Assembly (NCBI GenBank): GCA_029339505.1
Contig: JAQISU010000210.1
Location: 13,173,501-13,237,500, forward strand
DNA length: 64,000 nt
From: Unio delphinus
Lineage: Eukaryota > Mollusca > Bivalvia > Unionida > Unionidae
Reading direction: 5' to 3'
The position numbers and the translations under genes are program-made. Numbering within the stretch: the first letter of the stretch is position 1; each line of letters starts with the position of its first letter. Shown here piece by piece: positions 11,537-45,360 of the stretch. The notes under the pieces were generated by a model. It worked only from the letters and a program-made list of their open reading frames with translations, did not search any database and was not told the DNA's origin.

Positions 11537-11758
11537 AGCAGCAGAGGGGGCGAATCAGACAACTTTTTTTTGTTTTTATTTTTGATTATACCCCCTCCAA
11601 AATAACACTGGACCCTTCTCGCGAAAAAATAAGTCTCTGACCCTTGTCTGAAAACATTCGCGTCGCAACGTCGTTGTCACTCACCCCCTCTGCTGCTAGA
11701 ACTTTCAGTTGGGGTTAACCGAATATTTGATCCAGTCCGATACGATATCGTGTTCGAG
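11537..11758. repeat. Element 1 left terminal inverted repeat
   Basis: It matches 27725-27946 in inverted orientation over 222 bp with no mismatch seen. The outer 161 bp (11537-11697) is itself bounded by inverted ends (agcagcagaggggg and ccccctctgctgct). The inner end carries a copy of the last codons of the packaging ATPase, whose gene ends inside the right TIR. Confidence 0.93.
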
Positions 11759-11782
11759 ACCTTGTCTGGGGGACGAAAATCA

Positions 11783-13078: not shown

Positions 13079-13607
13079 GCTTGTTTGTACTGGTTTTGTG
13101 TTCTCCACTATTTGTTAAAGTAATTCCATCTGTGTTGTCATTGTTATTATACTCATGTTGTATTTCTAATTTTGACATCGCAGAATCATATATATCTACC
13201 ATCGCTGAAAACTCACTCTCTGATATAATTGTATCATCGAGCGATGACGATATCAATGAGGATAATTGCGAGTATGCAGTGGACACAACATGAAATTGAA
13301 TTATGTAGTCTTGTAGTTTCCGTTGGCTGCATGAGGATATTTTTTTTGTGATTATTGAAATTATTCCAGCGATTGTTGTTGCCGCAGAAATGCAAATTGG
13401 AACAGCTATCGGAGCCATCATTGTCACTGAAGACAGTATAATACCAGCTCCGGTGATTACACCACTCACAGCGTACACAGTAACATCAATTGCGGTAATT
13501 CTCCTGCGATATTTTTTAATTTTCAATTCATACTCCTCAGACAAGGTTTTGAGTCTAGTTTGATACTCTCTGACCTGATCATAGCGATATTGAGATGATG
13601 AAATCAT
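12978..13607 (-). CDS. Two-helix membrane protein of the virion block
   Basis: About 209 aa; start at the ATG shared with element 2 (52554). Residues 1-35 are charged and probably helical (REYQTRLKTLSEEYELKIKK). Two hydrophobic segments follow (YAVSGVITGAGIILSSVTMM and a second rich in A, I and P), giving a predicted membrane hairpin. A Ser-rich helical region comes next. The tail is polar and overlaps the start of the candidate minor capsid gene in a different frame, so its last ~35 residues may be unconstrained. No family recognised; a virion membrane or membrane-penetration role is possible. A GCTAGC palindrome lies immediately upstream in both elements. Confidence 0.55.
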   Translation of the reverse strand: MISSSQYRYDQVREYQTRLKTLSEEYELKIKKYRRRITAIDVTVYAVSGVITGAGIILSSVTMMAPIAVPICISAATTIAGIISIITKKISSCSQRKLQDYIIQFHVVSTAYSQLSSLISSSLDDTIISESEFSAMVDIYDSAMSKLEIQHEYNNNDNTDGITLTNSGEHKTSTNKHDLNNLNESRIQCEFPLSGPSEGNRASKITSIP

Positions 13608-13614
13608 TTTTATT

Positions 13615-13650
13615 TTAAACACGCTAGCGTTTTCAATTACGATTTACTTA
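13615..13650. promoter_or_regulatory. ACGCTAGCGT palindrome upstream of the membrane-protein gene
   Basis: A perfect 10-bp palindrome at 13621-13630 sits about 14 bp upstream of the start codon, and the matching position in element 2 (52532-52541) carries it too. It is one of six copies, all inside the two elements. Function unknown: a protein-binding site, a hairpin or a small insertion. Confidence 0.5.
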
Positions 13651-14566
13651 AATTCGCTACGAATTCCACATACCACGTTGTTGAGACCCTAACCAAATGT
13701 TTATCAGTAGATATGATTGTGAACTTTTCAGTTGTATTCTTGTCGATGATCGTTGAAATCGTATTATTGACCCCAGATGAACTGGACGATGAAATATTAA
13801 ATTGAGACGATGGTGTTACTAGTGTTAATCGATAAATACCCTTGACGGTTGCAGTGATGTCTAATTTGTTGTTTTCAGGTGTCCACTCAAATGATCCGTG
13901 TTGGATTGTGTATACCACGTTGTTGGTTTTCTCATGAGGAATTTTTGTTTTTTCAATGGCTGTTATCATCCTCGAAAGATCACCTTTGATGCCTTCGATG
14001 GAAGTTTTCGTCTCATCAATGGATTTTTTAATATCAGGGAGTTTTAGTTCAATTTTATCTAACGGGTTTCCAATAAATTTATCAATGGCGTCGGTTGTTG
14101 TTTTTGTTGCTTCGTTGATAACCTTTTGATCATCAACAAACGTTTTAATTTCAGCGATAGATGGTGTAACTACAATTGGGGATCCAAAGAACTTATGAAC
14201 GACATTTCTACGGAAACTATTGTAGTTTCTTAAATGATCTTCAAATTCTTTATCGTGGTTTGTAAATCGATCTGTAATCGTCGAAAAAAGTACACCCGGT
14301 TTGAGTTTACCTTGATCGGAAAATAGCGCAACGGTGTTCTCGATTGCGTTTTGTTGTTTAACCAAAATATCATCCAGATAAATATTACTGGATTTCAATT
14401 TACCCTGTTTGTCTTGAAATACAACTATTTCATTCGGGTCAACACTTGTTAAGTTCAACGTCTCAGCGATTTCATCTTTAATTTTTTTTTTTATATCCTT
14501 GATAGAATCAGGAGTTGCAGTGTCATCGGGTTTGGGTTTCAGAGGTCTTCCCCAAATATCAATCAT
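13637..14566 (-). CDS. Fibre-like trimeric attachment protein
   Basis: 309 aa. The N-terminus (MIDIWGRPLKPKPDD) is conserved with element 2 and could be the virion anchor. Residues ~20-220 are charged and heptad-like (for example DIKKSIDETKTSIEGIKGDL), with one KFFGSP...SIAEI unit. The last ~90 residues (YTIQHGSFEWTP ... WYVEFVANLSKS) are beta-rich and would fit a C1q/TNF- or knob-like head. Element 2 carries a longer version with about six KFFG...TLAEI units, so shaft length varies. I infer a host-attachment fibre from the architecture; there is no family match beyond that. It starts 7 bp before the protease gene stop in the same transcription direction. Confidence 0.55.
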   Translation of the reverse strand: MIDIWGRPLKPKPDDTATPDSIKDIKKKIKDEIAETLNLTSVDPNEIVVFQDKQGKLKSSNIYLDDILVKQQNAIENTVALFSDQGKLKPGVLFSTITDRFTNHDKEFEDHLRNYNSFRRNVVHKFFGSPIVVTPSIAEIKTFVDDQKVINEATKTTTDAIDKFIGNPLDKIELKLPDIKKSIDETKTSIEGIKGDLSRMITAIEKTKIPHEKTNNVVYTIQHGSFEWTPENNKLDITATVKGIYRLTLVTPSSQFNISSSSSSGVNNTISTIIDKNTTEKFTIISTDKHLVRVSTTWYVEFVANLSKS

Positions 14567-14572
14567 GATATT

Positions 14573-15010
14573 TTATATATCTCTCTCTAAAAAGCGATTA
14601 CTAGTGTAGTCATTTACGACAATGTGTGGTGGTTTTCCCCTTGGGTTACCCAAGGAGTTAGAAATAGCGTCAAGGACATTTAATACTTCACTGCCGCATA
14701 TTGGTGGGTCATTGATTTGTTGTGTTGGTAGCGTAGAATACCAAGTCTTCATTGGAAGGGTTTTTATATAATGCATAAACTCTTTTGGTGGGGCTAATCC
14801 ATATGAATCAAAATAGACAATCCCACGTGGATCAATAGCGTATGCAACCCAGTGAGTTCCAGGTCCGGTGCTGTTATCGAGATTAATAATACCTGTTTCA
14901 GTTTTGTTTGGTTGATGTGGTAATTGATCTTTCATAAAAACACCTCTGAAATTTTTAATCACTAGTTGTTTAGCAGCATCCATTAAATCAAAATTGGACA
15001 TTGGAACCAT
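14573..15010 (-). CDS. Adenain-like capsid maturation cysteine protease
   Basis: 145 aa from the ATG at 15010; an upstream open extension is only the 45-bp repeat region read in another frame. Catalytic residues fit the adenovirus protease/Ulp1 order: His53 in GTHWVAYAID, Asp68 in YFDSYG, Gln97/98 in PTQQIND, Cys105 in ICGSEVL. The size and the short N-terminus agree with Polinton proteases. In adenoviruses and Polintons this enzyme cleaves capsid and core precursors inside the virion, often near GxG sites. GLG/GKG sequences are present in the neighbouring core proteins. Intact in both elements. Confidence 0.88.
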   Translation of the reverse strand: MVPMSNFDLMDAAKQLVIKNFRGVFMKDQLPHQPNKTETGIINLDNSTGPGTHWVAYAIDPRGIVYFDSYGLAPPKEFMHYIKTLPMKTWYSTLPTQQINDPPICGSEVLNVLDAISNSLGNPRGKPPHIVVNDYTSNRFLERDI

Positions 15011-15021
15011 AGATTTCTGAA

Positions 15022-15567
15022 TTAATAAACCGTTCCTTGTAGTCTCAGGCCTGATCCGTGAACGGATCTTCCGCTGTACCATGAATACGGGGTTCCTGGT
15101 AGTCTTAGACCCTTTCCGCTGTACCATGAATACGGGGTTCCTGGTAGTCTTAGACCCTTTCCCTTTTTTTTATACCCTCGACCTTTCTTCGGTTCATATG
15201 ATTCAGCAATGCTCTGTACCGCTTTTGTTCCCAAGCCTCCAACTACCCCCAATGCGGCCGCTTTTGCTACTGCTGGGGCTGCTGCCGCAACCAATGCTGG
15301 TATTGCAGCAAACAACGGAAATATACCACCTGTTTTTATCATATTTTTGATAGCAGCCGCAGAAAGAGTAATCTGAATACCTTTTTTATCCTTGAAAGCA
15401 TCATTGAAATGTTTCACTTGACGAGTTGTCAGCGATAATTTATTTGCCCCGCCATTCATTTGATTAGGTTTCAACGTGATTGTGGTTCCACATTGTTTAG
15501 CGGATTTTGATTGCAATTTTTTTAACTGACCAGGTGTCAATGACACATTGATATTACTATATGACAT
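15022..15567 (-). CDS. Basic/hydrophobic virion core protein with LTxxQ motifs
   Basis: 181 aa. Residues 1-70 contain paired motifs LTPGQLKKLQ and LTTRQVKHF. Then comes a long hydrophobic Ala-rich stretch (GGIFPLFAAIPALVAAAAPAV...), a Lys/Gly-rich segment, and tandem copies of KGLRLPGTPYSWYSG encoded by a 45-bp repeat. Position next to the protease, basic charge and a membrane-active-looking helix recall adenovirus pVI/pX-type minor core proteins; that parallel is inferred. LTxxQ proteins of this kind accompany many Polintons, to my recollection. Element 2 carries a shorter homologue whose start region is frameshifted. Confidence 0.6.
   Translation of the reverse strand: MSYSNINVSLTPGQLKKLQSKSAKQCGTTITLKPNQMNGGANKLSLTTRQVKHFNDAFKDKKGIQITLSAAAIKNMIKTGGIFPLFAAIPALVAAAAPAVAKAAALGVVGGLGTKAVQSIAESYEPKKGRGYKKKGKGLRLPGTPYSWYSGKGLRLPGTPYSWYSGRSVHGSGLRLQGTVY
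15033..15160 (-). repeat. 45-bp coding tandem repeat
   Basis: Two near-identical 45-bp units (15116-15160 and 15071-15115) and a degenerate third encode KGLRLPGTPYSWYSG at the C-terminus of the core protein. The same unit occurs 2.5 times in element 2 (50341-50455). It is open in a second frame, which runs into the protease frame. Confidence 0.85.
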
Positions 15568-15632
15568 TATACAAATACAGATTGATTCTAAATCGTAAAA
15601 CGATTCAATGGAAATATCCTTCGGATTTTCAA

Positions 15633-17098
15633 TTACATATTTTCCACTGGTGCATCTACCACTCTCATTCTTCCACCAACACCTTCGAGTAGCATTGATT
15701 TATCACTGAGAATGACAGCAACTGCTCTATAATTCGTGATAAGGAGGGGAGCAACCCCAGCAACTGGTGGACCAGTCGGACGGGTTACACGGGCTCTAAA
15801 GTGTATATCAACGACAGATTGTCTCGTCAAATCAAGATGTTCCAATGAAAAGTAATAAATCGGATAGAGGCTTTTAAAATCCAATTGTGATATTTGCAAA
15901 CCGGTATCCACATTTTGATCACGTGCCATAAATGACAACAGGTTATGATAGACACGTGCAATATGATTTTGACCGTAATCAAGTTGTATATCCTCGGATG
16001 GTTCCTGCTGTCCGTTTATTCTCAGCGAGACTTCACTAACACCTAACTGATCAAATATCATATGACTTCGTTCTTGATTACCAACTCGCGCAGCATTCTG
16101 TAACGCAATAAATATATGACGTGGAGCTGAAACCCCTTGTTTTGATGCCAGGTGCCATGTGAATGTACCATCAACACTGTCTTGTTTAATATCCGTGGTC
16201 AATGATAACAACTTAACAACGACTTTCCTCCTTGGTCCATAAATGATAGTAGTCGCTGTTCGTCTGTGATTGATGGAGTTAACACTGGCATCCATAATGA
16301 TAGTTTTGTTAAAATGACTTTACCGGCAGCAACCCCAGCATTACGCCAGATTGCATCATCATCAGTACCCTTTCGTACAAGCGCTATTGTGTGTTTGGCT
16401 CCATAAATAACTTTTCTAACATTTCTACAGAATCCAAATATATGATGCAGTGGAATCGCACATGAAAATCGTCGACGCTGCCCATGCAACGTTGCTACAC
16501 GTGTTGCAAATCCTAAATTGAGATTACCATTAACGCCTCCGAGAATATCAAACGTAACTCCGGGGGGTCTAGCTCGACGTTCTGGATTAGCTCCTTCTTG
16601 TTGATTGGCTTCTGCAGTAGCCTGTGCTGTTAACACTTTAATGAATTGAAGGTGATCAGCGTTATCAGTAGTATCCTTTGCAAACATCATAGATGGACCC
16701 GCTGATCTTGTATAATCATCAGAATATCTTGCTAACCCTATGATTGTTGTGGCCATATCAACTTCACGGTCAATGGATTCAATTTCTTTTCCATCAATGA
16801 GATATCTAGCGCTTTCAAATAACGCCATGATGCCGTTATTAACAAAACCAACTCGGACATTTGCATTATCTGCATATGGGGTATCAGCTACAACATTTGT
16901 TACAAGTTCTCCTTCTACTTCAATAAATGCCTCACACGGTAGAAAATATTTACTGGTATCATGAACTTGAAGTTCAATTCGCGATCGGAGATCTGGTTGT
17001 AATGCGTGATAAGAATAAAATTGATAATCGCGTACAGAATCATCTTTACGCACTGGGGCGTCTATATCAAATGCTGGATCAGATGATTTTTTGAACAT
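15633..17098 (-). CDS. Major capsid protein (double-jelly-roll type), frameshifted
   Basis: Two overlapping frames (16199-17098 and 15633-16295) together cover one protein of roughly 490 residues. Compared with element 2, one G is missing from a GG at about 16210-16212, which ends the first frame. Features: YSYHALQPDLRSRIELQV near the start; FLPCEAFIEVEGEL; IDGKEIESID; the C-terminal YYFSLEHLDLTRQS and RAVAVILSDKSMLLEGVGG. This pattern matches the Polinton MCP family (annotated in C. elegans as F54H12.2-like), which is predicted to form double jelly-roll capsomers. The single-base gap in a short homopolymer could be real or an assembly error, given the otherwise young element. Confidence 0.8.
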
Positions 17099-17134
17099 TT
17101 TATTCTATTTATCAGAGTCTAAATCGGATTTTCC

Positions 17135-17181
17135 ATTTCATCGTGAAAAACGCTAGCGTGAAAATCCATAGGATTTCATCG
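17135..17181. repeat. Small palindromic insertion with 9-bp flanking repeat
   Basis: Direct repeats atttcatcg at 17135-17143 and 17173-17181 enclose 29 bp containing ACGCTAGCGT (17150-17159) and AAAATCC-ata-GGATTT. Element 2 has a single copy of the 9-bp sequence at this point and no insert. This looks like a tiny insertion that duplicated its target, just after the stop of the upstream gene and 37 bp before the MCP start. Confidence 0.6.
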
Positions 17182-17607
17182 ACGTGGTTTTCTAAAGCCA
17201 CTTCCTGCTATCATATTTGCAATATTGCTTTGGTCTCCTTGATTTACCATCGACGCTAGTTTTTCATCTACTGCGTTATTTATAATTTTACTAACACTTG
17301 CAGGCATTTCTTCTGTAGACGGTAACGGTTTCTTTTTTCGACTCACTAATGATGTTATTTTATCCTTCGCAGTTGAAAACGCTTTCCCGGCAAGATCTCC
17401 AACAGTACTAATACCCTTATCACGAATAACATCAATGGCTTTCATTCCAAGTTGTTTAGCTAACGGCATCACTTTTGGGGCTGTTCTTGAAAAGAATCCT
17501 AAAATGGTCTTGCCGAGGCCATCTCCGTAGTATGCTCTATAAACTGGAAACCGTGAATTAACTACATAGACGAGGGTTGGTTTATCATGATTGTAATGGA
17601 TGATCAT
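17176..17607 (-). CDS. Small basic virion protein with GLG site and amphipathic helix
   Basis: 143 aa. The N-terminus (VYVVNSRFPVYRAYYGDGLG) leads into an amphipathic helical stretch (TILGFFSRTAPKVMPLAKQLG). A Lys-rich middle (SLVSRKKKPLPS) follows, and the tail ends GSGFRKPRR. The order 'VYR...GxGLG, amphipathic helix, basic tail' is one I know from minor virion proteins in other Polintons. The GxGLG could be a maturation-protease site and the helix membrane-lytic, as in adenovirus pVI; both are inferences. Element 2 carries a closely similar 145-aa copy. It lies between the 349-aa gene and the MCP gene, same strand. Confidence 0.6.
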   Translation of the reverse strand: MIIHYNHDKPTLVYVVNSRFPVYRAYYGDGLGKTILGFFSRTAPKVMPLAKQLGMKAIDVIRDKGISTVGDLAGKAFSTAKDKITSLVSRKKKPLPSTEEMPASVSKIINNAVDEKLASMVNQGDQSNIANMIAGSGFRKPRR

Positions 17608-17640
17608 TATTATAAAAACAATAGTGTTTTCAATTGTTAT

Positions 17641-18690
17641 TTAATCACTATGATACCCATTTGCTAACTTGTCAATGAAATCTCGATAAGTTTTGATATC
17701 CATGATACCACCGGCAAATAATCGTCTACAAATATCAGCTGCTTCATTAATTATTTCTGGAGAGTTATTTCCAGCTCGGAACCCTCCTACAAGAACATCT
17801 AATCGTGATATATCATTGATAACACTATCAGGACAAGTGTTTCCAATCCTTGGATTTTGCAATCCACTTCCGCTATAACCAGCTGCTTCATCTAGTTTTT
17901 CTAAATCCGTAGTTTGTAAATAATCATCATCATCATCATCATCAGGTGGTAGTTGTTGTTTTTTTTGTCTCCGTGTTGGTGTTTGACGTCGTTCTTCTAA
18001 ATCATCATCATCATCAGGTGGTAGTTGTTGTTTTTTTTGTCTTCTTGTTTGTCTACGTGTTGGTGTTTGACGTTTTAGTTCTTGCCGTTCTTCTATTTCT
18101 CGTTGTCGTTCTTCTATTTGTTCTCTTTTATAATTACTAATTCCCTTTTTAAATTCCTTGTACCCTATCTCATCCTTATTCAAACGACCAATCCCTTTAT
18201 TTAGTTTATACAAATAATCGAACCAATCATTACTTGATATTCTATCATTTTTATACTCGTCCTTTAAAAAATCTTTTTTTGAATTATAGCTTTGAGCAGC
18301 AAAATTACCAAAGGCTTGATAATCCTTTGATTTCAATAAACTAGGTTTTTTTATTAATATTTTAGCATGATCAGTAAATTTATTCAACAGAGAAACAGTC
18401 GTTTTTTTCGGATCAGTTTGTTCAGTTTGTTCAGTTTTCGCTGCTAGTTTTTCAAGCTCACCAATAACAGATTTTCCCGTCTCGGGACCATCTCCCAGTA
18501 AAGCACGCTCTACTCCTTTCGTTGCTGTGGTTACTGGTTTAAACAACTCTTCAGACCCCAGAGCAAAATCAGTTTGTAAACTCTGTCGTTGTTGCAGTTT
18601 ATTTCTTACAGAGTCGCGAATTGGTATAAATTTCTTAATTGCATCTAGTCGCTCACGAGCCAATCGGGTCGTTAATGCTTCATTGACCAT
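17641..18690 (-). CDS. Conserved virion-block protein, 349 aa, variable middle
   Basis: Not a family I can name. Residues 1-60 (LTTRLARERLDAIKKFIPIRD) and the last ~60 (DISRLDVLVGGFRAGNNSPE, then DICRRLFAGGIMDIKTYRDF) are conserved with element 2 and with the broken copy at 8680-9690. The middle is different in each copy. In element 1 it holds a duplicated hydrophilic linker, QTPTRRQ...KKQQLPP followed by runs of 5-7 Asp. Three independent relatives retaining the ends but not the centre suggest two functional terminal regions joined by a tolerant linker. The start ATG is shared with element 2 and preceded by the conserved ATTTCAAATAATG-type leader. Confidence 0.6.
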   Translation of the reverse strand: MVNEALTTRLARERLDAIKKFIPIRDSVRNKLQQRQSLQTDFALGSEELFKPVTTATKGVERALLGDGPETGKSVIGELEKLAAKTEQTEQTDPKKTTVSLLNKFTDHAKILIKKPSLLKSKDYQAFGNFAAQSYNSKKDFLKDEYKNDRISSNDWFDYLYKLNKGIGRLNKDEIGYKEFKKGISNYKREQIEERQREIEERQELKRQTPTRRQTRRQKKQQLPPDDDDDLEERRQTPTRRQKKQQLPPDDDDDDDYLQTTDLEKLDEAAGYSGSGLQNPRIGNTCPDSVINDISRLDVLVGGFRAGNNSPEIINEAADICRRLFAGGIMDIKTYRDFIDKLANGYHSD

Positions 18691-19187
18691 TATTTGAAAT
18701 CAGAAACCATTTTTCAATTGTAAAACAATTTTTCCCATCGATGATTCCATCCTTAACGGTCCAATTTTTTATTGCTGTGAAATATTTTTATTTTTTATCC
18801 ATTGATTTTGCCTGTTTTGGTGTCATTTTGGTGGTTTTCAGTTGAAAATCTCAAAGAGATTTTACAGTCAAGTAGTCGATTTTACATGGGATTTTCCATA
18901 AGGAAAAGCTGTTAAAACTCATTTTTGATGATTTTTAGCCATTTTTCATCAATTTTTGCCTGTTTTCAGTGATGTTTGGTCATTTTTCATCGATTTTCAT
19001 CAAAAAACCTCGTAGGGTCAAGTAGTCGATTTTGCATTGCATTTTCCATAGAGAAAAGCTGTTAGGATTCTATTTTATTTTCGCAGTGTGAAATATTTTC
19101 ACTGATTCAATAAAAAAATGACAAAAAAAAAATGAAAATCTCAAGGAGATTTTACTGTCTGACAAAATATATTGAGGGGCTGGTCAA
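18691..19187. promoter_or_regulatory. Noncoding region with leader motif and direct repeats
   Basis: No gene. Next to the 349-aa start is a leader (18691-18730) matching those before both element 2 homologues. Further out, two imperfect ~50-bp direct repeats (about 18867-18920 and 19017-19070) share gtcaagtagtcgatttt and ttttccata. This is the only sizeable gap between gene blocks in the element, and element 2 has a 350-bp gap at the same place, so an origin or promoter function is possible. Confidence 0.4.
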
Positions 19188-19544
19188 TCAAAATAGTTCA
19201 TTTTCTTGAATTAACGCTCGTAAGTTTCTAATTTTAGAATTAACTTCCTTTTTCAATTCATATTCGTTACCCAATTCTTTTCGTATTCCTTCCACGATAG
19301 TATATAACGGAACAAACACATCTACTTCACTGGAAAATGCAAGAGAGTCTCGAATAGAATTTTGAATTTTTTTGATGAGTGCATATTTCTTTGGCAACAT
19401 ATACTTGTTAGTGCTAACTCCGTATTCTATATCCTGAAAATCCGACTTGATTTGATCAGGATTTAACCCATCTGACAATCTAATATTCTGATTTTTCAAT
19501 TTTGCAATTTCAACTATGATGCTATTCATAATTTCAGAATTCAT
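19188..19544 (-). CDS. Conserved 118-aa protein, function unknown
   Basis: Acidic to neutral, helical-looking protein (IIVEIAKLKNQNIRL...PKKYALIKKIQNSIRD...KSKIRNLRALIQEN-like ending). It is conserved in element 2 at 46356-46712, and the shared ATG (MNSE) sets the start. No cysteines, no transmembrane segment, no recognised motif. It sits alone between the noncoding gap and the minisatellite/insertion region, same strand as the virion block. Conservation across two diverged elements supports it being real. Confidence 0.6.
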   Translation of the reverse strand: MNSEIMNSIIVEIAKLKNQNIRLSDGLNPDQIKSDFQDIEYGVSTNKYMLPKKYALIKKIQNSIRDSLAFSSEVDVFVPLYTIVEGIRKELGNEYELKKEVNSKIRNLRALIQENELF

Positions 19545-19599
19545 ATATGATAATACATATTTCTAATTCATTTTTCAAAAATAAAAGAGCCGTTAATAT

Positions 19600-20035
19600 T
19601 TTTAAAAATTCAGTCTGTATATATAACTATCTTTTTTAAAAATTAATTCTGTATATATAAATATCTTTTTTAAAAATTCAGTCTGTATATATAACTATCT
19701 TTTTTAAAAATTCAGTCTGTATATATAAATATCTTTTTTAAAAATTCAGTCTGTATATATAAATATCTTTTTTAAAAATTCAGTCTGTATATATAAATAT
19801 CTTTTTTAAAATTAATTCTGTATATATAAATATATTTTTTAAAATTAATTCTGTATATATAAATATATTTTTTAAAATTAATTCTGTATATATAAATATA
19901 TTTTTTAAAATTAATTCTGTATATATAAATATATTTTTTAAAATTAATTCTGTATATATAACTATCTTTTTTAAAAATTCAGTCTGTATATATAAATATA
20001 TTTTTTAAAATTCAGTCTGTATATATAAATATAAA
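19600..20035. repeat. AT-rich minisatellite, ~37-bp unit
   Basis: About a dozen tandem units built on tctgtatatataaatat and ctttttttaaaa-type blocks, in two slightly different variants arranged in runs. Element 2 has nothing comparable. Uniform spacing without unique spacers rules out a CRISPR array. Confidence 0.85.
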
Positions 20036-21589
20036 TGCAGACAAAAATAAATATCAACCATGATGAGCGATTATCAGTCATTTGGCCCCCTTGATATAGG
20101 CCGTTGTGGTTCTATTTGCATTCATTGGGTCCCTTATTAGGCCTTTGTGTCTTTCATAGGGTCCTTTGTTAGAGCATTTTTCTGTTTCTGTTTTATATCA
20201 GGATTTTTTTTTTGTTTTTGCTCTTTGAGATATGACCCTATGACCGTTTCTATTAGCCTATAATTCATTCTGGGGTTACCCAATGTGCATCCACGTTTTG
20301 GCCGGTAATTCATTTTTGAACACCATACGGGGTAACCCAAATGTGATGGAGAGCTAATTACATCCATGGATGGTATTTATTTTAGGTCATTTATATTTAC
20401 ATTCACCGGAAACATATTTCCCTAAGAGTGAATCTAACTCGTCAAATAACGGGTTATAATCACAAGAGGGTATGTTTACGTGAAATGACCTAGAGGTTAC
20501 ATATATACGACAACACATCTTTGGAACTCCTTGGTTGCCTTCACATCCAAGTAAGCCCAAGGGAAACCCGAAACATACATCTCCGGAAGGGAGGCCTAAC
20601 ATGGCAAACGCCATCTTAGACCGCCCAGAAGATATGCTTGGGGTGACGTCAAAACATATACTTAATTAAGGACAGCACAAATACCGTATATATTTCCACT
20701 GAGTGTTGTGGCAAATTGTAGGTATACATATACTTAATTAACTTAATTAAGGATGGATTATAATTCAATGATGATGGGATTATAATTCAATGATGATGGG
20801 ATTATGATGATGGGATTATGATTCAATGATGATGTAATGTAGGGCATTTATGTCTTTACATTCACATAACATGCAACCCATGAAATTAAATTCATGGTTG
20901 CGTAAGTTGTCAAAAACCGACAACCCACTGCTACCGTAAATTTGATAGCATGGGTTTTGCATGTTATGTGAATGTAAACACAGAGGGGGCGCCTTCCTCC
21001 CCTCAATTAAATAGAAAAAAAAAACATCCAACCGTTTCACCATCAGACAATTGTCTGCTATGGGGCGCGAACATTGGAAGAATAATTGTCTGGGTTTACA
21101 AGCCAAACACGATACCGTTAGACCACTGTTCACGTCTATAAAGAATAAGGTTTTTTAACGTATATATGTTGTAACTATTCATATGGCATATAAAGGAAAT
21201 TAATACATCAATCCGCAAGTATGCTATTTTATTTTCTTGAATTACTTATTAATGGTGTTTCACAGTATTTAAATGAGACAGAATATTTGACTTAAACACT
21301 AGAACAAAGAATATAATTGTTTGAAAACATGTCTTTTCTTACAAAACAATGCCCAGCGCTGAATCACAATACCCATTAAACAAGTTAACACAATCTAAGG
21401 GAGAAAGTATACACGTGTGTTATCCTGTAATGCCTGTATCTCCGGATCACATCCTATGTTATGAAATACGCATTAATCGCACGTGACACAGAATATTTGA
21501 CTTAAACACTAAAAAAAAAAGAAAATATATCTTTTCCTAAAAAGAAATACCAAGCCGCTAAATCACAATGATAACTCCCTTGGTTATTA
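20036..21589. other. Insertion of unrelated sequence in element 1
   Basis: Element 2 lacks this stretch; there the homing endonuclease gene occupies the position. No gene is supported: three minus-strand frames of 75-105 codons show no signature. It contains a ~28-bp inverted repeat (20855-20978), short tandem repeats around 20755-20835, a ~100-bp direct duplication (about 21280-21380 and 21487-21585), and ccaagggag-type words near 21565-21620 of the kind scattered in molluscan DNA. It is probably one or more host-derived repeats or a nonautonomous transposon. Confidence 0.55.
20855..20978. repeat. Inverted repeat (hairpin)
   Basis: Arms at 20855-20882 and 20949-20978 (tttacattcacataacatgc and its inverse) pair over about 28 bp around a 66-base loop. 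A partial third copy of the arm lies near 20395. Possibly the end structure of a nonautonomous element. Confidence 0.7.
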
Positions 21590-21736
21590 TCATTTAAGAG
21601 TAGTCTCCCTTGGTGTTATAGACGGTACGCGTGTACTGTATTTTGACATACGAAAATAGAATTTTCTGATAATACTATTACGGAATGCTTCATAATTAAC
21701 AAGCACGGAGGGGTGAGGTCTGAATTCTTGGTTCAT
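21590..21736 (-). pseudogene. Truncated NUMOD4-HNH homing endonuclease remnant
   Basis: The first ~30 codons (MNQEFRPHP, then NYEA) match the start of the intact endonuclease in element 2 at 45820. Similarity is lost after about 90 bases, where the inserted sequence begins, and the frame ends within 49 codons. The catalytic HNH region is absent. Its place, directly downstream of the Cys-rich gene, is the same in both elements, so the endonuclease was ancestral and has been destroyed here. Confidence 0.75.
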
Positions 21737-21749
21737 TTGTATAATAACA

Positions 21750-22091
21750 CTATTTTTCTAATTCATTGTTTGGTTTAATTATAAGTCTCTGTATATAATC
21801 TTGAGCAGTCTTTATTATTTTGTCATCGTTGGGGTCAATGGCAGTATTTTTTATTTTTTTATCATAATAGCGTTTTAGCTCCCTGTATCGTTTTCCGCCG
21901 CACATAATGCATAATTGCGACCTCCCCCTGACCCCAACCCCACATTGAATACAGGGTAACGGACCTCGGCTTCCACGACGAAAGCTTTGCATATGATACC
22001 AACAGAATTCATTTCTGCATGATTTGTTACACGGTGTCACTGATCCAATCATAAGCCATTTGCAATGATTCATTATACTTAAATCTTTCAT
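21750..22091 (-). CDS. Cys-rich zinc-binding protein, 113 aa
   Basis: Cysteine/histidine pattern: NHCKW, PCNKSCRNEFCWYH, PCIQCGVGVRG, QLCIMCGG. That makes two or more CxxC pairs likely to bind zinc, followed by a basic helix (KRYRELKRYYDKKIK). This fits a nucleic-acid-binding or regulatory role but matches no family I can name. Transcribed divergently from the polymerase-helicase gene with only 24 bp between start codons. Element 2 keeps the gene (45385-45807) with three added 8-residue repeats. Confidence 0.6.
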   Translation of the reverse strand: MKDLSIMNHCKWLMIGSVTPCNKSCRNEFCWYHMQSFRRGSRGPLPCIQCGVGVRGRSQLCIMCGGKRYRELKRYYDKKIKNTAIDPNDDKIIKTAQDYIQRLIIKPNNELEK

Positions 22092-22115
22092 TTAAATACT
22101 TGTTTTAATTATAGT
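22092..22115. promoter_or_regulatory. 24-bp divergent start region
   Basis: The ATG of the Cys-rich gene (minus) and of the polymerase-helicase gene (plus) are separated by 24 AT-rich bases. Element 2 keeps exactly the same spacing (45361-45384). Each promoter must lie in or beyond the other gene's 5' end. Confidence 0.4.
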
Positions 22116-25100
22116 ATGGAGGAGTTCGAGAGATTATCGAAAATTAAGCCCTGGAAAAGTGTTCAATTCAATCTTGATAGAGTTTCTGATACACCAAAGA
22201 ATAAAATTCTTGATAGAACCTTGATTAGTAAAATCAGAGACTGTTTTAATGAATTCAAGCGTGATGGGGCAGCTCATTGTTGGTCAACATTTCGAATTGA
22301 TGGTGTTGTTGACGCTACCATGAATGATGAAAAAGCAGCAGTGATAATCTCACGTCTTGGGGAAGAAAGAAATTTTTTTCGAATAAAATTCCTTATCCGT
22401 GATAATGGAAAATGGATAATTAGGGACAAATACGAGCCTTTTCTTAAGGAAAAAAAAACTGTCACTGTGACTCAGGATTCAAAACCAGGAATTTTGACTG
22501 GACTTGATAAACCCTACTACGAAAGATCTTATCCTGTCACAGTAGTTGTTTACGGGATATATCCACTCAATGAAAAACCTGATATTTCAAAACTAGCACC
22601 CATGAAATATTCGACAGGGCTCAATTGTGTAGCAACACGAATAATAGAACACTTCACAAATGCGTCCCGGGGAAATAAGCTAACTGATCTAAGACGAAAA
22701 AAAATAACCGAATGGGAACTGACAGTGAAACAGCATGGGGCAACAATTCAAGATATAGCCAAATTAGAAACATCATTGAGATTTCCAATATCGGTAAGGA
22801 CAATCACCGGAGAAGTATTATACAAATCGAAATATAAATCACAGGGAGCTCCCATTGAAATTATTGATCATAACGCACACGCGTGGTCATCTGCAGTAAC
22901 AATATTCCCACGGGATAGAACCGTAAAATATCTGTTTGGAACCGAAGAGTTTTTTTCAGAGCAGAAATTATTTGATGCTATTTACCATTTGAGTAAAAAC
23001 GATTCTGTGTCAGTGTGGCTATTTCATAGTACTTCAGACGAAGAATGTAGATTTGATCAGTTTGTAAGGCCCAACGGAGAATTGTACCGTACTGAAGAGC
23101 TGCATAATCAAATGAAACAACTAGCTAGTGAATTTTCTCCCCAGAGTTTTGGGGGGGAAGACAACGATCAATTATTAGCAAACTGTTTTACACTTCCATC
23201 AGTTGTAGCACATTTTGCTAGAAAGAAAAACGCGTGGAAACCAACCCGAAGTGAGTTCTTATCAGATGTCAAATTGTCCTGTCTTGAATACAGCCATGGA
23301 GGATTATGGAACACAAAATACACAGCTGATACCGTTATTTCAGTTGATATGATTGCATGTTATCCAGGAAGTTTTCTTGGGTATGGAGAGTGTGAGAAAT
23401 ATTTCAAACGATTTGGACACCCAACACACGAAATGACCCGTGTTGCTATTAATGGACCACTGCCACATTTCGATTTAACCGGATTCGCTTGTGTAGTATC
23501 ATTTGAAATGGCTGAAGGGCTTCATCCGTGTAGTTATCTTTGGATTGGTAAACACATGTCTGAAAAACACTGGATGCCAATAGTGTTATTACGGTATATG
23601 CTTGATTGTAAGATGTTAAAATCATTAATTGTCAGTGAAGCAATTATATCCTATCGAGCACAGAAATCAGTCTGGTTACCACAACCTGATCTAGAAAAAA
23701 TAATTAGCGAAGAGCGAAAACTGTTTCCTGATTTTAATGAACAACAAATCATGGATTGGTCCAGACAGTTATTTGAAATCAGAAACAATGAAGCAAAAGA
23801 TCTTGGACGAAGAATAATCGGTAAATTTACCCAAGGTGGCAAAGATGATAATACGAGATATTCTTCACGATTGATTATAGACAATGCTGAATACGATTTT
23901 GTAATCAAAGATTTAACGAATAGGGGCTTATATGTCAATCGTAAGGACGCATTTATGTCCGATGGAACCAAATTGGGTACAATTGTTACTTACACTGATG
24001 GATACCATCAGCAGTACACATATTTGAGAGCTTCTATGCTTGGTTATGCTTCTATCAATCTGTTTTCAATGATCAATAGATTTCCTACCACCGCAGTTAG
24101 AGTTGCTACTGACTCATTTTACATAAATAGCAAACTGGCTGATTTTAAGGCTACTGGCAACGAGAATTGGGGGTCATGGAGAATTAAGAAGGAAATGCTT
24201 CATGATTATATTCCATCAGCAGATGTTACCATTGAAAATAATTACTTAGAAAGCAATCAGTGTTCAGAATTTTCTAGTGCACCACCGATTTCTGATCCAA
24301 TCTGTAGATATAAAACAGTTTATTTAAACGGTTGTGGCGGGTCAGGAAAAACAACCCGGGCAATTGAGTTATTCCGTAGAAACGCTAGCGTTTCCAATCC
24401 AAACATGATTGTGCTAACACCGACTCACAGACTCGCCAGAGAGATGAAACAACGAGGGGTAAATGCCTGCACTTATCATAGCTTTTTCCGATGGAAGGGA
24501 GATAAATGGACTCCTGAGCGCATGGGAGAGAAATTTATTCCTGAAATTATCATGTGGGATGAAATAGACACAGTGTCCGAAGATGTCTTAAAAATATTTC
24601 TTGAGTGGTTGTTATTGAAGAATACAAAAGTCGTAATGTGCGGGGATCACGGCCAACCTCCACCATTTGTCGGTGCATCCCCCCATGAATGGCTAAAGGG
24701 TTTTGTAGACTATTATGAAGAAATTGATACTGATCATAGATCACTTGATAATGAATTAAAAGAATTTAAGAAACTAATTAGATTACAACCGGATAGAATC
24801 CAGTGTGAAATAGCCCGTGAAATAATTTCGGAAACTCCCATGAATGAGTTTTGGGAAGCGAGGAGACCAAATGATTTAATCATTGCAAGTAGAAAAATAG
24901 TCAGGGATACACTTCAGATGAAGTTATTTGAATTGCATAAACAAAAATTTGCAACACTTCCAGTACCGTTATGTTATAGGCCATCGGATACACGAAAACA
25001 GAACATCGAAGTTGATATTCCAGGACCAAAATCCGAAGGATTTCAAAGACAGATTCTCGTATTAAATGATATTGTGCTGGTTGATATCAATGTCGTTGAA

Positions 25101-25406
25101 GATGCATTGCGTGCTAATAAATCCCCATGGACGCTAGGTTATGCAGCAACAATACACTCTTCACAGGGATTGACTATATCGGATACAACTGTTTGGATGG
25201 TAGATAATCGCATAGAATGGTCGAATTTAGTCTATCTCGCAGTGTCTAGAGTACGAAAAATAAATCAACTTCGAAGAATTGTCCTGACAGAGTCAGGCGA
25301 TGATGAAATCATTAGCAATGATAATGACACCACAATAAATGATATTATTGATAAAAAACTCTCCGGTTACAAACAACAAGACAAAAAAAAAACAACGAGA
25401 ATTTGA
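22116..25406 (+). CDS. Polymerase-helicase: divergent PolB palm fused to SF1 helicase
   Basis: 1096 aa. The N-terminal ~400 residues are unrecognised; I see no 3'-5' exonuclease motifs and no terminal-protein domain. Palm: motif A SVDMIACYPG (Asp ~411), a motif B-like KDLGRRIIGKFTQGG (~557-573), motif C VATDSFYI (Asp ~666). Helicase: Walker A GCGGSGKTT (~739), TPTHRLAREM, Walker B WDEI (~815), CGDHGQPPPFVG, IHSSQG (~1015), VYLAVSRVRK (~1040), an SF1 Pif1/RecD-like set. In element 2 the same frame continues into an HNH domain; here a one-base difference in an A-run near 25383-25392 puts HNH in another frame. It takes the place of the protein-primed PolB of ordinary Polintons, so it is probably the replicase. 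Confidence 0.78.
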   Translation: MEEFERLSKIKPWKSVQFNLDRVSDTPKNKILDRTLISKIRDCFNEFKRDGAAHCWSTFRIDGVVDATMNDEKAAVIISRLGEERNFFRIKFLIRDNGKWIIRDKYEPFLKEKKTVTVTQDSKPGILTGLDKPYYERSYPVTVVVYGIYPLNEKPDISKLAPMKYSTGLNCVATRIIEHFTNASRGNKLTDLRRKKITEWELTVKQHGATIQDIAKLETSLRFPISVRTITGEVLYKSKYKSQGAPIEIIDHNAHAWSSAVTIFPRDRTVKYLFGTEEFFSEQKLFDAIYHLSKNDSVSVWLFHSTSDEECRFDQFVRPNGELYRTEELHNQMKQLASEFSPQSFGGEDNDQLLANCFTLPSVVAHFARKKNAWKPTRSEFLSDVKLSCLEYSHGGLWNTKYTADTVISVDMIACYPGSFLGYGECEKYFKRFGHPTHEMTRVAINGPLPHFDLTGFACVVSFEMAEGLHPCSYLWIGKHMSEKHWMPIVLLRYMLDCKMLKSLIVSEAIISYRAQKSVWLPQPDLEKIISEERKLFPDFNEQQIMDWSRQLFEIRNNEAKDLGRRIIGKFTQGGKDDNTRYSSRLIIDNAEYDFVIKDLTNRGLYVNRKDAFMSDGTKLGTIVTYTDGYHQQYTYLRASMLGYASINLFSMINRFPTTAVRVATDSFYINSKLADFKATGNENWGSWRIKKEMLHDYIPSADVTIENNYLESNQCSEFSSAPPISDPICRYKTVYLNGCGGSGKTTRAIELFRRNASVSNPNMIVLTPTHRLAREMKQRGVNACTYHSFFRWKGDKWTPERMGEKFIPEIIMWDEIDTVSEDVLKIFLEWLLLKNTKVVMCGDHGQPPPFVGASPHEWLKGFVDYYEEIDTDHRSLDNELKEFKKLIRLQPDRIQCEIAREIISETPMNEFWEARRPNDLIIASRKIVRDTLQMKLFELHKQKFATLPVPLCYRPSDTRKQNIEVDIPGPKSEGFQRQILVLNDIVLVDINVVEDALRANKSPWTLGYAATIHSSQGLTISDTTVWMVDNRIEWSNLVYLAVSRVRKINQLRRIVLTESGDDEIISNDNDTTINDIIDKKLSGYKQQDKKKTTRI
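24379..24394. repeat. 16-bp perfect palindrome gaaacgctagcgtttc in the helicase gene
   Basis: Lies about 35 codons after Walker A and encodes NASVS. The same palindrome is at the homologous position in element 2 (42608-42623). It shares the ACGCTAGCGT core with the intergenic copies. Confidence 0.7.
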
Positions 25407-25608
25407 TATTGATGCTGAATTAATAATTACTCTGAAGCAACAACAGAATAATCACTGCGCGAGTTGCAATTGTATAATGCGTTGGCAGTATTCGGATAAG
25501 GATCCTCGCCAATTCACCGTGGACAGAAAAAATAACAATCTCGGTCATGTCAGAAATAATGTGATGTTGACTTGTCTTGAGTGCAATAGACGCAAGGGTG
25601 CTAGTTAA
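25339..25608 (+). CDS. HNH endonuclease domain (C-terminal part of the replicase)
   Basis: Functional reading starts around the A-run at 25383. Motifs: HCASCNCIM (zinc CxxC), FTVDRKNNNLGHVRNNV (HNH core) and LTCLECNRRKG (second CxxC). It is a compact HNH nuclease of about 70 residues. In element 2 it is fused in frame to the helicase C-terminus. Here the A-run has 10 rather than 11 bases, so it appears as a separate overlapping frame; sequencing error, ribosomal slippage or a true break cannot be told apart. The stop overlaps the convergent integrase stop by 8 bases. A nicking or resolving role in replication is a guess. Confidence 0.7.
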   Translation: MILLIKNSPVTNNKTKKKQREFDIDAELIITLKQQQNNHCASCNCIMRWQYSDKDPRQFTVDRKNNNLGHVRNNVMLTCLECNRRKGAS

Positions 25609-26554
25609 GCCCATGCGGTGGTAATTGAGTATCCTCAGGTATCACTTGTAATTGTTGTCTAGTAAAACCCCGTTGAGGGGCAGTTGAATCCAGTTTATAG
25701 ATTGGAGGTCTACCCGTAGATCGTGTTATACTAGATATCTTATGTGCAGTAACACTCCAAATAGGATCAGTAGCCCTTTTTGTGCCACCCTCAAGCTCTC
25801 CTGGTTCGTATAAGTACCTCACAATGACATTACTACCAAGAATTGGTTGGGAAACGCTAAAATCTTTTTGAATTTCCATTTCAGGTATTGACTTCTTTTT
25901 AATCGCATTGATAGGTTTCATGTTGATGGTTCTAGTAATCTCGTTATTCAGTGCAGTAATCACAGCTGGTAACCTTTTAACCCATTCACGGGATCTTTTT
26001 TCTTGGATGAATTCTTTTGCGTATTGATATCCAAATAACCGCTCAGCAAGGGTTTTATTAAATCGTTCTACAATTGCCTGATCACGATGCAGTGCAGTAT
26101 GCCCTCGTCTGATAGCGACATTGTGATATTTCATTGTAGATAACACTGCACCCTGAAATTCCTTGCCCGGGTCAACTTGTAACAGATTTGGCCAGTGCAG
26201 AGGACTCCTTCGATAAATCCTTTCAAATGCAGAAGCCACTTCAGTGGCTGATTTTGTTTTTAACGGTTCTGCTTCTTTGCATCGACTTGCAATATCAACT
26301 ACGGTTAATGCGTATTTGTAACCATGATCATGTGGCAGAAATAATATATCAGCCTGATGAACTTCATTGGGTCCGGTCACATCAAAATGCGAGAAATTGA
26401 TTTGTTTAGGCGGTGGTAGATAAATTTGCCATAGTGCCTGTTTGGATAACCAATGAGCCGCAGTGGTTTTTTTCACTTTCGCAGCGCTAGCGAGTTTATG
26501 GATTGCTGATTTACCCCTCCAGTATCCTCTTGGGGAATAATAAATAGATTCCAT
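25601..26554 (-). CDS. Polinton-type rve/DDE integrase
   Basis: 317 aa, intact. DDE triad: Asp69 in HQADILFLPH, Asp128 in LQVDPGKEF, Glu163 in AIVERFNKTL (35-residue D-E spacing as in retroviral integrases). The N-terminus starts MESIYYSPRGYWRG, usual for Polinton integrases, with no HHCC zinc finger. The C-terminal ~90 residues (NVIVRYLYEPGELEGG ... RGFTRQQLQVIPED) form the SH3-like DNA-binding region of this family. Expected to insert the linear element at AG/CT ends with a 5-6 bp target duplication, matching what is seen here. Convergent with the HNH/replicase gene; co-oriented with zinc ribbon/PLA2. Confidence 0.93.
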   Translation of the reverse strand: MESIYYSPRGYWRGKSAIHKLASAAKVKKTTAAHWLSKQALWQIYLPPPKQINFSHFDVTGPNEVHQADILFLPHDHGYKYALTVVDIASRCKEAEPLKTKSATEVASAFERIYRRSPLHWPNLLQVDPGKEFQGAVLSTMKYHNVAIRRGHTALHRDQAIVERFNKTLAERLFGYQYAKEFIQEKRSREWVKRLPAVITALNNEITRTINMKPINAIKKKSIPEMEIQKDFSVSQPILGSNVIVRYLYEPGELEGGTKRATDPIWSVTAHKISSITRSTGRPPIYKLDSTAPQRGFTRQQLQVIPEDTQLPPHGLN

Positions 26555-26561
26555 GTTGTTA

Positions 26562-26921
26562 TTAATTACCAGCCCCTAACATCAATTTACTTTTCATAGC
26601 CGATTTTATCAAAAAGGAAGCCAATTTTTCTTTGAAAGATTTATCAGAAATAGCATTTAACGCATGAATTAATTTCACATCTGCTAGATGCCTGTGCTGC
26701 AGATTACTGCTTTTATAAGATACATCATGAAGGTGACAGGCCTTATCAATAGCGTTTATTGGTTCCTCACCGGGTCGGGGCTGATTTTGATCATTGAGTC
26801 TGATATCAAGTCTTGTTCCCGGTCCACAGTAGCTATATCCTGGAAGGTGTTTTTCTCCGGGGTATTTTGCCCATGTGGTTCCAGGGAGTTTTGCTAATTT
26901 GGCTGCAATATCACCTCCTCT
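26562..26921 (-). CDS. Parvovirus-type phospholipase A2 (-1 frame of zinc ribbon)
   Basis: Reads HLPGYSYCGPGTRLD (calcium loop YxGPGT) and NAIDKACHLHDVSY (catalytic His-Asp), then HLADVKL and a Lys-rich helix ending KLMLGAGN. This is the secreted-PLA2 fold used by parvovirus VP1 to escape endosomes and known in adintovirus-type elements. No ATG precedes the domain. The frame is open back to the A-run at 26921-26930 and lies in -1 relative to the zinc-ribbon gene. The same arrangement holds in element 2, so expression as a zinc ribbon-PLA2 fusion by -1 frameshifting is the simplest reading. Confidence 0.75.
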   Translation of the reverse strand, partial: RGGDIAAKLAKLPGTTWAKYPGEKHLPGYSYCGPGTRLDIRLNDQNQPRPGEEPINAIDKACHLHDVSYKSSNLQHRHLADVKLIHALNAISDKSFKEKLASFLIKSAMKSKLMLGAGN

Positions 26922-27091
26922 TTTTTTTTTAAAGGTTCCTTGAGTTCCTTGGGTTTAGAAACAAATCTAAATTTCTTTGTACTACATTGTACGCATTTAC
27001 CAGAAAGCGCTGATCGGTTATTTTTAGTTGTAATCGTCGTCAAGTCATCTGTGCCAGTACGCGCCTTACACTTCACGCAATATAGATCCAT
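26894..27091 (-). CDS. Zinc-ribbon protein (DUF5679-like)
   Basis: 65 aa: MDLYCVKCKARTGTDD ... KCVQCSTKKFRFV, two CxxC pairs about 30 residues apart, then a Lys-rich tail. Short zinc ribbons with YCVKCK at the start are common in Polintons and giant viruses, where to my recollection they are often fused to the PLA2 domain in one frame. Here the zero frame ends just after the A-run, and PLA2 continues in -1. The ATG is only 5 bp from the divergent ATPase start. Confidence 0.75.
   Translation of the reverse strand: MDLYCVKCKARTGTDDLTTITTKNNRSALSGKCVQCSTKKFRFVSKPKELKEPLKKKEEVILQPN
26921..26930 (-). promoter_or_regulatory. Putative -1 frameshift slippery site (A10)
   Basis: In the zero frame of the zinc ribbon the codons are TTA AAA AAA AAA GAG, giving an in-phase A AAA AAA heptamer. 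A -1 slip enters the PLA2 frame with no intervening stop. The element 2 counterpart is A AAA AAC. Confidence 0.5.
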
Positions 27092-27096
27092 AATTT

Positions 27097-27768
27097 ATGT
27101 ATAGAGATATGAATATAATTGATTTTTCAGCGACTAAAACAAGAGAACCAGTGAAGCATCATGCAGCGCTACCAAACTCTATCCGCGCAATTATAATCGG
27201 ACCATCTGGATCCGGTAAAACGCAATTGTTGCTCAATTTAATAATGAGATGGATGAAGTGGGATAAGTTGTATTTAATTGCCCCTAGCGTAGATGATCAA
27301 CGATGCTATGAAGTGCTAAAAGATTTTAATGAAAACGCTTCAGAGATTGCCGCCGAGGATGTTATTGAATTTATAACCGATATTGACGAGGCGCCATCCG
27401 TGAATGACCTCGATGGAAGTATCAACAATTTAGTTGTATACGACGATGTCATGTTAGATAATCAAAACAATCCTGCTAGAATATTTTCCAGAGGCAGGCA
27501 TAAAAACACGGATGTGATCTATGTCACTCAACGCTACACTCAGATTCCAAAAGTGATTAGAGATAACTGTAATATGCTTGCTGTATTCAACGGCGTTGAT
27601 ACACATACGCTACGAAATATTTGGCAGACATGGTGTTCTGATATGGACTTCAATCAATTTAGAAATTTCTTTAGTCATGCTCAGTCTACCCCACACGGAT
27701 TTGTAACAATAAATTTACATGACCCTCGAACACGATATCGTATCGGACTGGATCAAATATTCGGTTAA
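27097..27768 (+). CDS. A32/FtsK-type genome-packaging ATPase
   Basis: 223 aa. Walker A GPSGSGKT (35-42), Walker B NLVVYDDVML (Asp116-Asp117), and a downstream DVIYVTQRYTQIP segment. These fit the FtsK/HerA-superfamily packaging ATPases of Polintons, adintoviruses and poxvirus A32. It would pump the genome into the capsid. The start used is the ATG shared with element 2; a second in-frame ATG is at 27109. The last 15 codons (DPRTRYRIGLDQIFG) lie inside the right TIR, so the left TIR carries a copy of them without a gene. Divergent from the zinc ribbon with 5 bp between starts. Confidence 0.9.
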   Translation: MYRDMNIIDFSATKTREPVKHHAALPNSIRAIIIGPSGSGKTQLLLNLIMRWMKWDKLYLIAPSVDDQRCYEVLKDFNENASEIAAEDVIEFITDIDEAPSVNDLDGSINNLVVYDDVMLDNQNNPARIFSRGRHKNTDVIYVTQRYTQIPKVIRDNCNMLAVFNGVDTHTLRNIWQTWCSDMDFNQFRNFFSHAQSTPHGFVTINLHDPRTRYRIGLDQIFG

Positions 27769-27946
27769 CCCCAACTGAAAGTTCTAGCAGCAGAGGGGGT
27801 GAGTGACAACGACGTTGCGACGCGAATGTTTTCAGACAAGGGTCAGAGACTTATTTTTTCGCGAGAAGGGTCCAGTGTTATTTTGGAGGGGGTATAATCA
27901 AAAATAAAAACAAAAAAAAGTTGTCTGATTCGCCCCCTCTGCTGCT
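27725..27946. repeat. Element 1 right terminal inverted repeat
   Basis: Inverse of 11537-11758 with no mismatch seen. Includes the end of the ATPase gene, then the inverted-ended outer module (27786-27946). Followed by the target duplication ttatt (27947-27951). Confidence 0.93.
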
Positions 27947-38987: not shown

Positions 38988-39214
38988 AGCAGCAGAGAGG
39001 GTGAACAGACCACGTTTTCAAGCAAAAATAAGGCTTCCAGATAAGGTTTTCGAACAAAATATGGCCTATAGATAACGTTTTCGAACAAAATATCAGGTTT
39101 CAAACAAATCTCATTTAACCAAAAAAAAGTCTCCATTTTTGCAAAAACGGAGATTTTACGATTTTTTAATCAATTTTGCTCGCAACGATGTGGTCATCCA
39201 CCCTCTCTGCTGCT
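38988..39214. repeat. Element 2 left terminal inverted repeat module
   Basis: Bounded by agcagcagagagggtg and ccaccctctctgctgct, as in element 1, although the interior is different. The interior holds a ~37-bp direct repeat (ttttcgaacaaaatat twice) and a hairpin around ctccatttttgcaaaaacggag. Matches 54568-54795 inverted. Confidence 0.9.
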
Positions 39215-39252
39215 AAAGTTTTCAGTTCTGGGTTAATAATTCTTTTACGATT

Positions 39253-39924
39253 TTAACCGAATATTTGATCAAGTCCGATACGATATCGTGTCCGAGGATC
39301 ATGCAAATTTATTGTTGCGAATCCGTGCGGAGTCGACTGAGCATGACTAAAGAAATCTCGAAATTGATTGAAGTCCATATCAGAACACCATGTCTGCCAA
39401 ATATTTCTAAGAGTATGAGTATCAACTCCGTTGAATACAGACAATAAATTGCAGTTATCTCTGATCACTTTTGGAACCTGAGTGTAGCGTTGAGTGACAT
39501 ATATCACGTCAGTGTTTTTGTGACGCCCACGGGAAAATATTCTAGCAGGATTCTTTTGTTTATCCAACATTATATCGTCGTATACGACTAAATTGTTAAT
39601 ATCTCCATCAATATCATCAATACTCGGTGCTTCATCGATATCGGTTATAAAATCAATGGCGTTCTCACCCTTAATTTCTGATGCATTCTAATTAAAATCC
39701 TTTAACACTTCATAACATCGTTGATCATCTACGCTAGGGGCAATTAAATACAACTTATCCCACTTCATCCATCTCATTATTAAATTGAGTAACAATTGCG
39801 TTTTACCGGATCCAGATGGCCCGATTATAATCATCCGGATAGAGTTTGGTAGCGCTGCATGATGCTTAATTGGTTCTCTTGTTTTAGTCGCCGAAAAATC
39901 AATTATATCCATATCTCTATACAT
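39253..39924 (-). pseudogene. Packaging ATPase, one nonsense codon
   Basis: Homologous over its full length to the intact ATPase of element 1, with Walker A GPSGSGKT and Walker B NLVVYDDIML both present. A TAG at 39688-39690 (a Glu codon in element 1) separates them; the frame is otherwise open to the C-terminal GLDQIFG. A single lesion suggests relatively recent loss. Confidence 0.88.
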
Positions 39925-39929
39925 AAATT

Positions 39930-45330: not shown

Positions 45331-45360
45331 TTTCGAAGGCGTTCTCCTTAATTCCCTCAT

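Follow-up and report, generated by a model that had tools for sequence, protein, structure and literature searches.

Tlr1-like helicases (pPolB-S1H), in which a protein-primed family B DNA polymerase (pPolB) and a superfamily 1 (SF1) helicase form one protein, have been described for the Tlr1 element, Polinton-like viruses (PLVs) and transpovirons (PMC11071308). In the sections of that article drawn on here, they consist of a variable N-terminus, a domain in the position of the terminal protein (TP), a vOTU domain with Cys and His residues, a palm and the SF1 helicase, in this order, with a C-terminal GIY-YIG or HNH nuclease. Their palm is of the protein-primed type, has no exonuclease and, like that of mavirus, has a motif C without the first Asp; there are active PolBs with this loss, and an earlier claim of inactivation is revised there. 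The same source ascribes an RVE integrase to Tlr1 and proposes, for Polinton pPolBs, that the vOTU domain cuts the priming domain off the polymerase (PMC11071308). The present work concerns a replicase likely of this kind in the bivalve Unio delphinus. It is encoded by element 1, one of two inverted Polinton-like elements in a stretch of 64,000 nucleotides (the window; assembly GCA_029339505.1, contig JAQISU010000210.1, positions 13,173,501 to 13,237,500 of the forward strand).

By its domain order, the replicase likely belongs with the Tlr1-like helicases, an assignment by analogy in which Tlr1 is known from its description. As far as that description goes (PMC11071308), both have the Cys and His of the vOTU domain, the C-terminal SF1 helicase and an HNH nuclease in some members, and appear to agree in the succession of domains, a motif C without its first Asp and the lack of a recognised exonuclease; the element has an RVE integrase, as does Tlr1. 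They differ in that the present replicase belongs to a bivalve element with relatives in Elysia and mycorrhizal fungi, that its motif B has diverged, and that an extra stretch (residues 263-390) separates the vOTU-like domain from the palm. A first-pass annotation of this DNA had seen in the fusion a possible distinct replication strategy; since the same architecture is already reported in that source for Tlr1, PLVs and transpovirons, the element is likely a further example of the Tlr1-type arrangement and not a new strategy. With it, an architecture recorded there from PLVs, transpovirons and a ciliate element reaches an animal genome, at high copy number. The dozens of near-identical copies, many of them with open replicases, allow two standing questions to be put to the test: is a palm with no exonuclease and a broken DTD motif active in protein-primed synthesis, and do elements of this type spread as viruses?

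A PLV of Oxyrrhis marina also has an SF1 helicase and a protein-primed PolB in one chain, but there, within the sections of the source used, the helicase lies at the N-terminus, an exonuclease is retained and neither a TP nor a vOTU domain was found (PMC12721341). Canonical Polintons, or Mavericks, share with the Unio element the inverted ends, RVE integrase, A32-type packaging ATPase, double-jelly-roll (DJR) capsid and, by a weak match, the adenain-like protease. The window elements differ from them in having no canonical, exonuclease-bearing pPolB and in their 5-bp target duplications, those of Polintons being 6 bp long. As the searches gave no canonical pPolB in it, the element is filed as Polinton-like and not as a bona fide Polinton. 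The modelled palm has structural matches to the pPolBs of mavirus and bidnaviruses, which the N-terminal model matches more weakly; these pPolBs are not known to carry a fused SF1 helicase.

Domain Organization of the Replicase

In Pfam, the replicase (Table 1) matches solely helicase and related NTPase families (AAA_19, E 1.6e-11; AAA_30, 3.6e-10; UvrD_C_2, 0.15), and the helicase also matches a Dda-like phrog and PIF1/RecD chains. It is more than a chance open reading frame (ORF): 64 proteins match it at E <= 1e-3, and the ratio of non-synonymous to synonymous divergence (dN/dS) between the replicases of elements 1 and 2 is 0.23 overall. When the window protein was aligned with 29 of these 64 matches, D411, K570, D666, S667, Walker A K745 and Walker B D815/E816 proved invariant in 30 of 30 sequences; the palm and helicase motifs named in the first-pass annotation are all present in the ORF. 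The Asp of motif A and the Asp-Ser of motif C are thus retained throughout, whereas motif C lacks the first Asp.

The middle domain is predicted to be a protein-primed palm like that of phi29 DNA polymerase, in an alignment covering phi29 residues 228-499, and the model gave no sign of anything other than a palm. At the sequence level, its link to canonical pPolB is unproven, given that the palm profile compared with three near-identical canonical sequences yielded an hhalign probability of 0.9% (E 0.06), with motif C alone in register. The first ~400 residues, which had seemed to match nothing, contain an OTU-like fold (a weak match of the predicted structure) with an invariant Cys and His, and residues 50-153 are predicted to adopt an alpha/beta fold; no terminal protein is among the structural matches listed for this N-terminal domain. 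The replicase matched no polymerase exonuclease family in searches that barely covered residues 263-390.

As first annotated, this B-family palm-SF1 helicase with HNH is the sole polymerase-like gene found in either element. A canonical pPolB was found in neither: six pPolB ORFs, of which one is partial, were taken from 75 scored pPolB places in the genome and compared with the window by tblastn, which gave no match below E 0.5. This second, canonical family (PF03175) is abundant elsewhere in the genome, with at least 75 scored places and many open frames near 1,361 amino acids (aa); in one fetched locus of 3,536 bases, a BIR (inhibitor of apoptosis) ORF overlaps the 3' end of the pPolB. Among the best-scoring 42 replicase copies and the 75 scored pPolB places, nine copies share a contig with such a place, and the nearest pair is 384 kb apart.

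Copies of the Replicase and Probable Exchange Between Them

The genome searched comprises 2.5 Gb in 1,246 contigs, and the scored copy lists hold the best matches, so the counts are lower bounds. There are at least 42 copies of the replicase, all at 98-100% protein identity (in 39 of them the match contains no stop), and at least 125 scored copies of the integrase (98-100%). All 42 replicase copies were fetched. They have the highest scores among 65,872 first-look candidates, so that intact copies are favoured and private non-synonymous changes disfavoured in this set.

Between the two window elements, dN/dS is 0.26 for the N-terminus, 0.18 for the vOTU domain, 0.13 for residues 263-390, 0.21 for the palm and 0.18 for the helicase, so that the palm is about as constrained as the helicase; the HNH nuclease has the highest value of the domains (0.64, on 84 codons). 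Among the fetched copies, which differ at 289 two-state sites, private variants (35 synonymous, 90 non-synonymous) stand at 0.87 of the neutral ratio, those found in two or three copies (9 and 8) at 0.30, and those found in at least four copies (29 and 17) at 0.20 (Fisher p against private variants, 6.5e-5). Read most simply, this means that the replicase was kept functional by selection in the inserting pool and that copies drift once inserted. This contrast between shared and private variants offers a simple test of viral spread in any genome with many young copies.

At 60 common replicase sites, mean r2 is 0.197 within 300 bp and 0.03-0.07 further apart, and four gametes occur in 73% of near site pairs and in 80-100% of more distant pairs. 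A second, diverged ATPase type lies beside nearly identical integrase in 7 of the 20 fetched copies; the ATPase types look like cassettes swapped between element lineages. Synonymous divergence between elements 1 and 2 is uneven along the replicase, from 0.35 in the helicase to 1.74 in residues 263-390. The decay of linkage disequilibrium (LD), the two ATPase types and the uneven divergence can all be explained by template switching between DNA molecules that replicate together. The copy set suggests that replication worked recently, before insertion, in a template pool that exchanged sequence.

Proposed Mechanism and Alternative Explanations

It is fairly probable that the replicase copies linear element DNA by protein priming; the duplex would likely be opened by the helicase part of the same protein. 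One ORF joins an N-terminal region, an OTU-like region, a predicted phi29-like palm and an SF1 helicase, within an element that has identical inverted ends and genes for integrase, packaging ATPase and capsid. Priming would be the task of the N-terminal domain in the TP position, which would provide the residue that serves as primer and remain attached to the 5' ends. The vOTU domain would sever this priming domain from the polymerase, and palm and helicase would copy the strand end to end, without a recognised proofreading exonuclease. The 5-bp target duplications point to insertion of the product by the RVE integrase, and the terminal HNH nuclease would likely be a dispensable passenger of the homing type.

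Several data weigh against this mechanism or fit it less well. The motif-B lysine position, in the register chosen here, is Ser in 18, Arg in 5 and Lys in 1 of the 30 aligned sequences, the invariant K570 lying four residues further on. The vOTU His string is absent from 2 of the 42 copies, and the motif-C string likewise from 2 of 42. Variants of the integrase and ATPase were counted in 20 rows, namely the window and 19 of 20 fetched integrase regions (20 of the 125 scored copies were fetched; the match of the region left out spans no more than 1,654 of 2,168 bases). Private and common variants number 13 synonymous/5 non-synonymous and 8/1 in the integrase, and 5/12 and 71/49 in the ATPase; these copies are those ranked highest by protein score, a selection that conceals private non-synonymous changes. 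The signal of exchange could also stem from post-insertion gene conversion or chimeric assembly.

Motifs B and C also speak for the likeliest of the alternatives, in which the palm is a catalytically dead scaffold or DNA-binding module and a host polymerase, or the pPolB copies of other elements, act in trans. The genome is rich in canonical pPolBs with long open frames (at least 75 places), and a 2016 title by Krupovic reportedly speaks of an inactivated polymerase. Such a dead palm is nevertheless unlikely in view of D411, K570, D666 and S667, conserved in 30 of 30 sequences, and of a palm dN/dS (0.21) near that of the helicase (0.18). The relevant sections of PMC11071308 also revise the inactivation, active PolBs with the same loss being known.

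It is less probable still that the element is now a DNA transposon only, amplified from the chromosome by host replication and its integrase, with the replicase a relic without current selection. Private replicase variants are indeed near neutral (0.87), every fetched copy is integrated, and the capsid gene is open only in pieces in both window copies; against this, shared variants are strongly constrained (0.20), 39 of the 42 best-scoring replicases have no stop within the match, and the decay of linkage implies template exchange, although ectopic gene conversion or chimeric assembly could mimic it.

The HNH nuclease bears on a further alternative. In window element 1, it lies in another frame than the helicase; the feature end at 25608 given by the first-pass annotation belongs to this separate 89-aa ORF, and the replicase ends at 25406. 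In-frame copies exist elsewhere in the genome (22 of 42 by open-frame count; reading from the start gives 20 of 42, because two have an earlier stop), and the two groups are set apart by a difference in length where helicase and HNH meet. Of the homopolymer runs, the one at this junction is the longest, and slippage or length-dependent assembly error may occur there. The copy alignment has ten other such runs: in nine of them variation is confined to 0-2 copies, and the tenth differs in 11 copies by substitution, with no alignment gap. The copies with HNH out of frame were also considered as a clade, but a tree of the 42 copies has 15 state changes and is unreliable because of low LD, and no clade is claimed. 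Since the HNH pattern is present in 34 of 36 matches of at least 1,040 aa, the nuclease appears, by sequence comparison, to be long-lived in the replicase family; the frame split at the junction and the high dN/dS fit the reading of a homing-type, likely dispensable passenger. The idea first put forward, of a rolling-circle-like process in which the palm extends the 3' end of a nick made by HNH while the helicase unwinds, draws on that widespread pattern, on the 20-22 in-frame copies and on possible complementation of the others in trans by fused copies, but is very improbable given the nearly identical 20-22 copies, about half, with HNH out of frame or past a stop, a dN/dS of 0.64 (84 codons) against 0.13-0.26 in other domains, and linear inverted ends with a protein-primed-type palm, which fit terminal priming better.

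A wider account is possible but held tentatively. An animal-borne Polinton-like lineage, with relatives in molluscs and mycorrhizal fungi, may have exchanged the proofreading pPolB for a self-processing TP-vOTU-palm-helicase replicase and may, in this genome, very recently have spread as a freely recombining virus population, swapping short tracts and whole ATPase types; selection in the pool would stop on insertion, and HNH would be optional and frame-toggling.

Distribution of Relatives

Among the proteins matching the replicase are annotated ones from sea slugs (Elysia) and from the mycorrhizal fungi Diversispora and Racocetra; a profile search adds a relative in the freshwater mussel Sinanodonta woodiana. 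Another relative occurs in a metagenome-assembled genome (MAG) of Thiodiazotropha, a bivalve symbiont, and among GTDB genomes one archaeal-MAG contig of 3,152 bases, without usable context, is 41% identical; both are likely misbinned host or viral DNA. The sole IMG/VR match, a phage-type helicase without a palm in its ORF, was rejected as a relative, and scans of this database yielded no Tlr1 or transpoviron protein. The titles and abstract openings of the literature searched name no such fusion in a mollusc.

Element Ends and Other Genes

Table 1. Features of the two elements, in positions of the window.
Feature	Position	Strand	Remarks
Element 1	11537..27946		inverted ends of 222 bp
Left terminal inverted repeat, element 1	11537..11758	+	begins AGCAGCAG
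Adenain-like cysteine protease	14573..15127	-	weak match; PF00770 E 0.0029, below cut-off
DJR major capsid gene	15633..17098	-	two overlapping ORFs in window copy
Replicase	22116..25406	+	1,096 aa, ATG start
Replicase domains (residues)			TP-position ~50-153; vOTU-like 165-256; palm ~392-700; SF1 helicase ~731-1056
HNH nuclease	25339..25608	+	89 aa; PF01844 E 0.0053, below cut-off
RVE-type integrase	25601..26554	-	PF00665 E 6.5e-7, 30.0 bits, below cut-off of 32.6
A32-type packaging ATPase	27097..27768	+	PF04665 E 3e-11
Right terminal inverted repeat, element 1	27725..27946	-	complementary to left arm at 222/222
Element 2	38987..54796	-	inverted, more decayed relative; outer bases of matched terminal repeats
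Element 2 replicase, helicase C-terminus and in-frame HNH	41410..42168	-	separate ORF; 77% identical to residues 909-1095
Element 2 replicase, from N-terminal domain through helicase core	42178..45411	-	74% identical to residues 1-904
Element 2 capsid fragment	49060..49917	+	PF21738 E 5.7e-15

The termini of element 1 read AGCAGCAG...CTGCTGCT, with TTATT at both flanks. Perfect 5-bp duplications were found in all four elements read at both ends, element 1 and three further genome elements located via their inverted repeats, and the best 40 of 751 candidate matches to the terminal repeat, those that were scored, are all 100% identical. An inverted copy of the terminal motif lies ~160 bp inside each terminal repeat, and the strand end could fold back.

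The virion, packaging and integration set that the first-pass annotation saw in both elements holds for element 1, in part by weak matches; in element 2, no ORF of at least 120 aa covers the ATPase region, and the sole ORF of that minimum length for the integrase counterpart has 121 aa. The integrase ORF of element 1 also matches the NCBIfam IS481 transposase (1.7e-13, below that family's cut-off). Its capsid ORFs match PF21738 at E 1.2e-8 and 1.7e-5, the second below cut-off; there are longer homologs (401-499 aa), and capsid matches occur in Sinanodonta and Potamilus. Capsid proteins 71-82% identical sit on short public-collection contigs (1.6-5.8 kb), possibly from circulating viruses or host DNA. 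Tandem repeats of 34 nt lie between gene blocks of element 1 (19531-20035).

The terminal arms of element 2 are 97% complementary to each other, the other 23 cross-element arms shown being at 74-96%, and its flanks agree in 4 of 5 bases. Its replicase is split over two ORFs, with no single full-length ORF: the HNH is in frame, as had been noted, but only with the helicase C-terminus (UvrD_C_2 0.0016, below cut-off), and the remainder lies in the other ORF, which was delimited mechanically and has ~159 extra residues upstream. A 120-nt repeat family occurs at the upstream end of the latter ORF (44872-45300), and element 2 also holds an extra HNH_3 endonuclease of the homing type with a weak NUMOD1-like tail (45820-46311).

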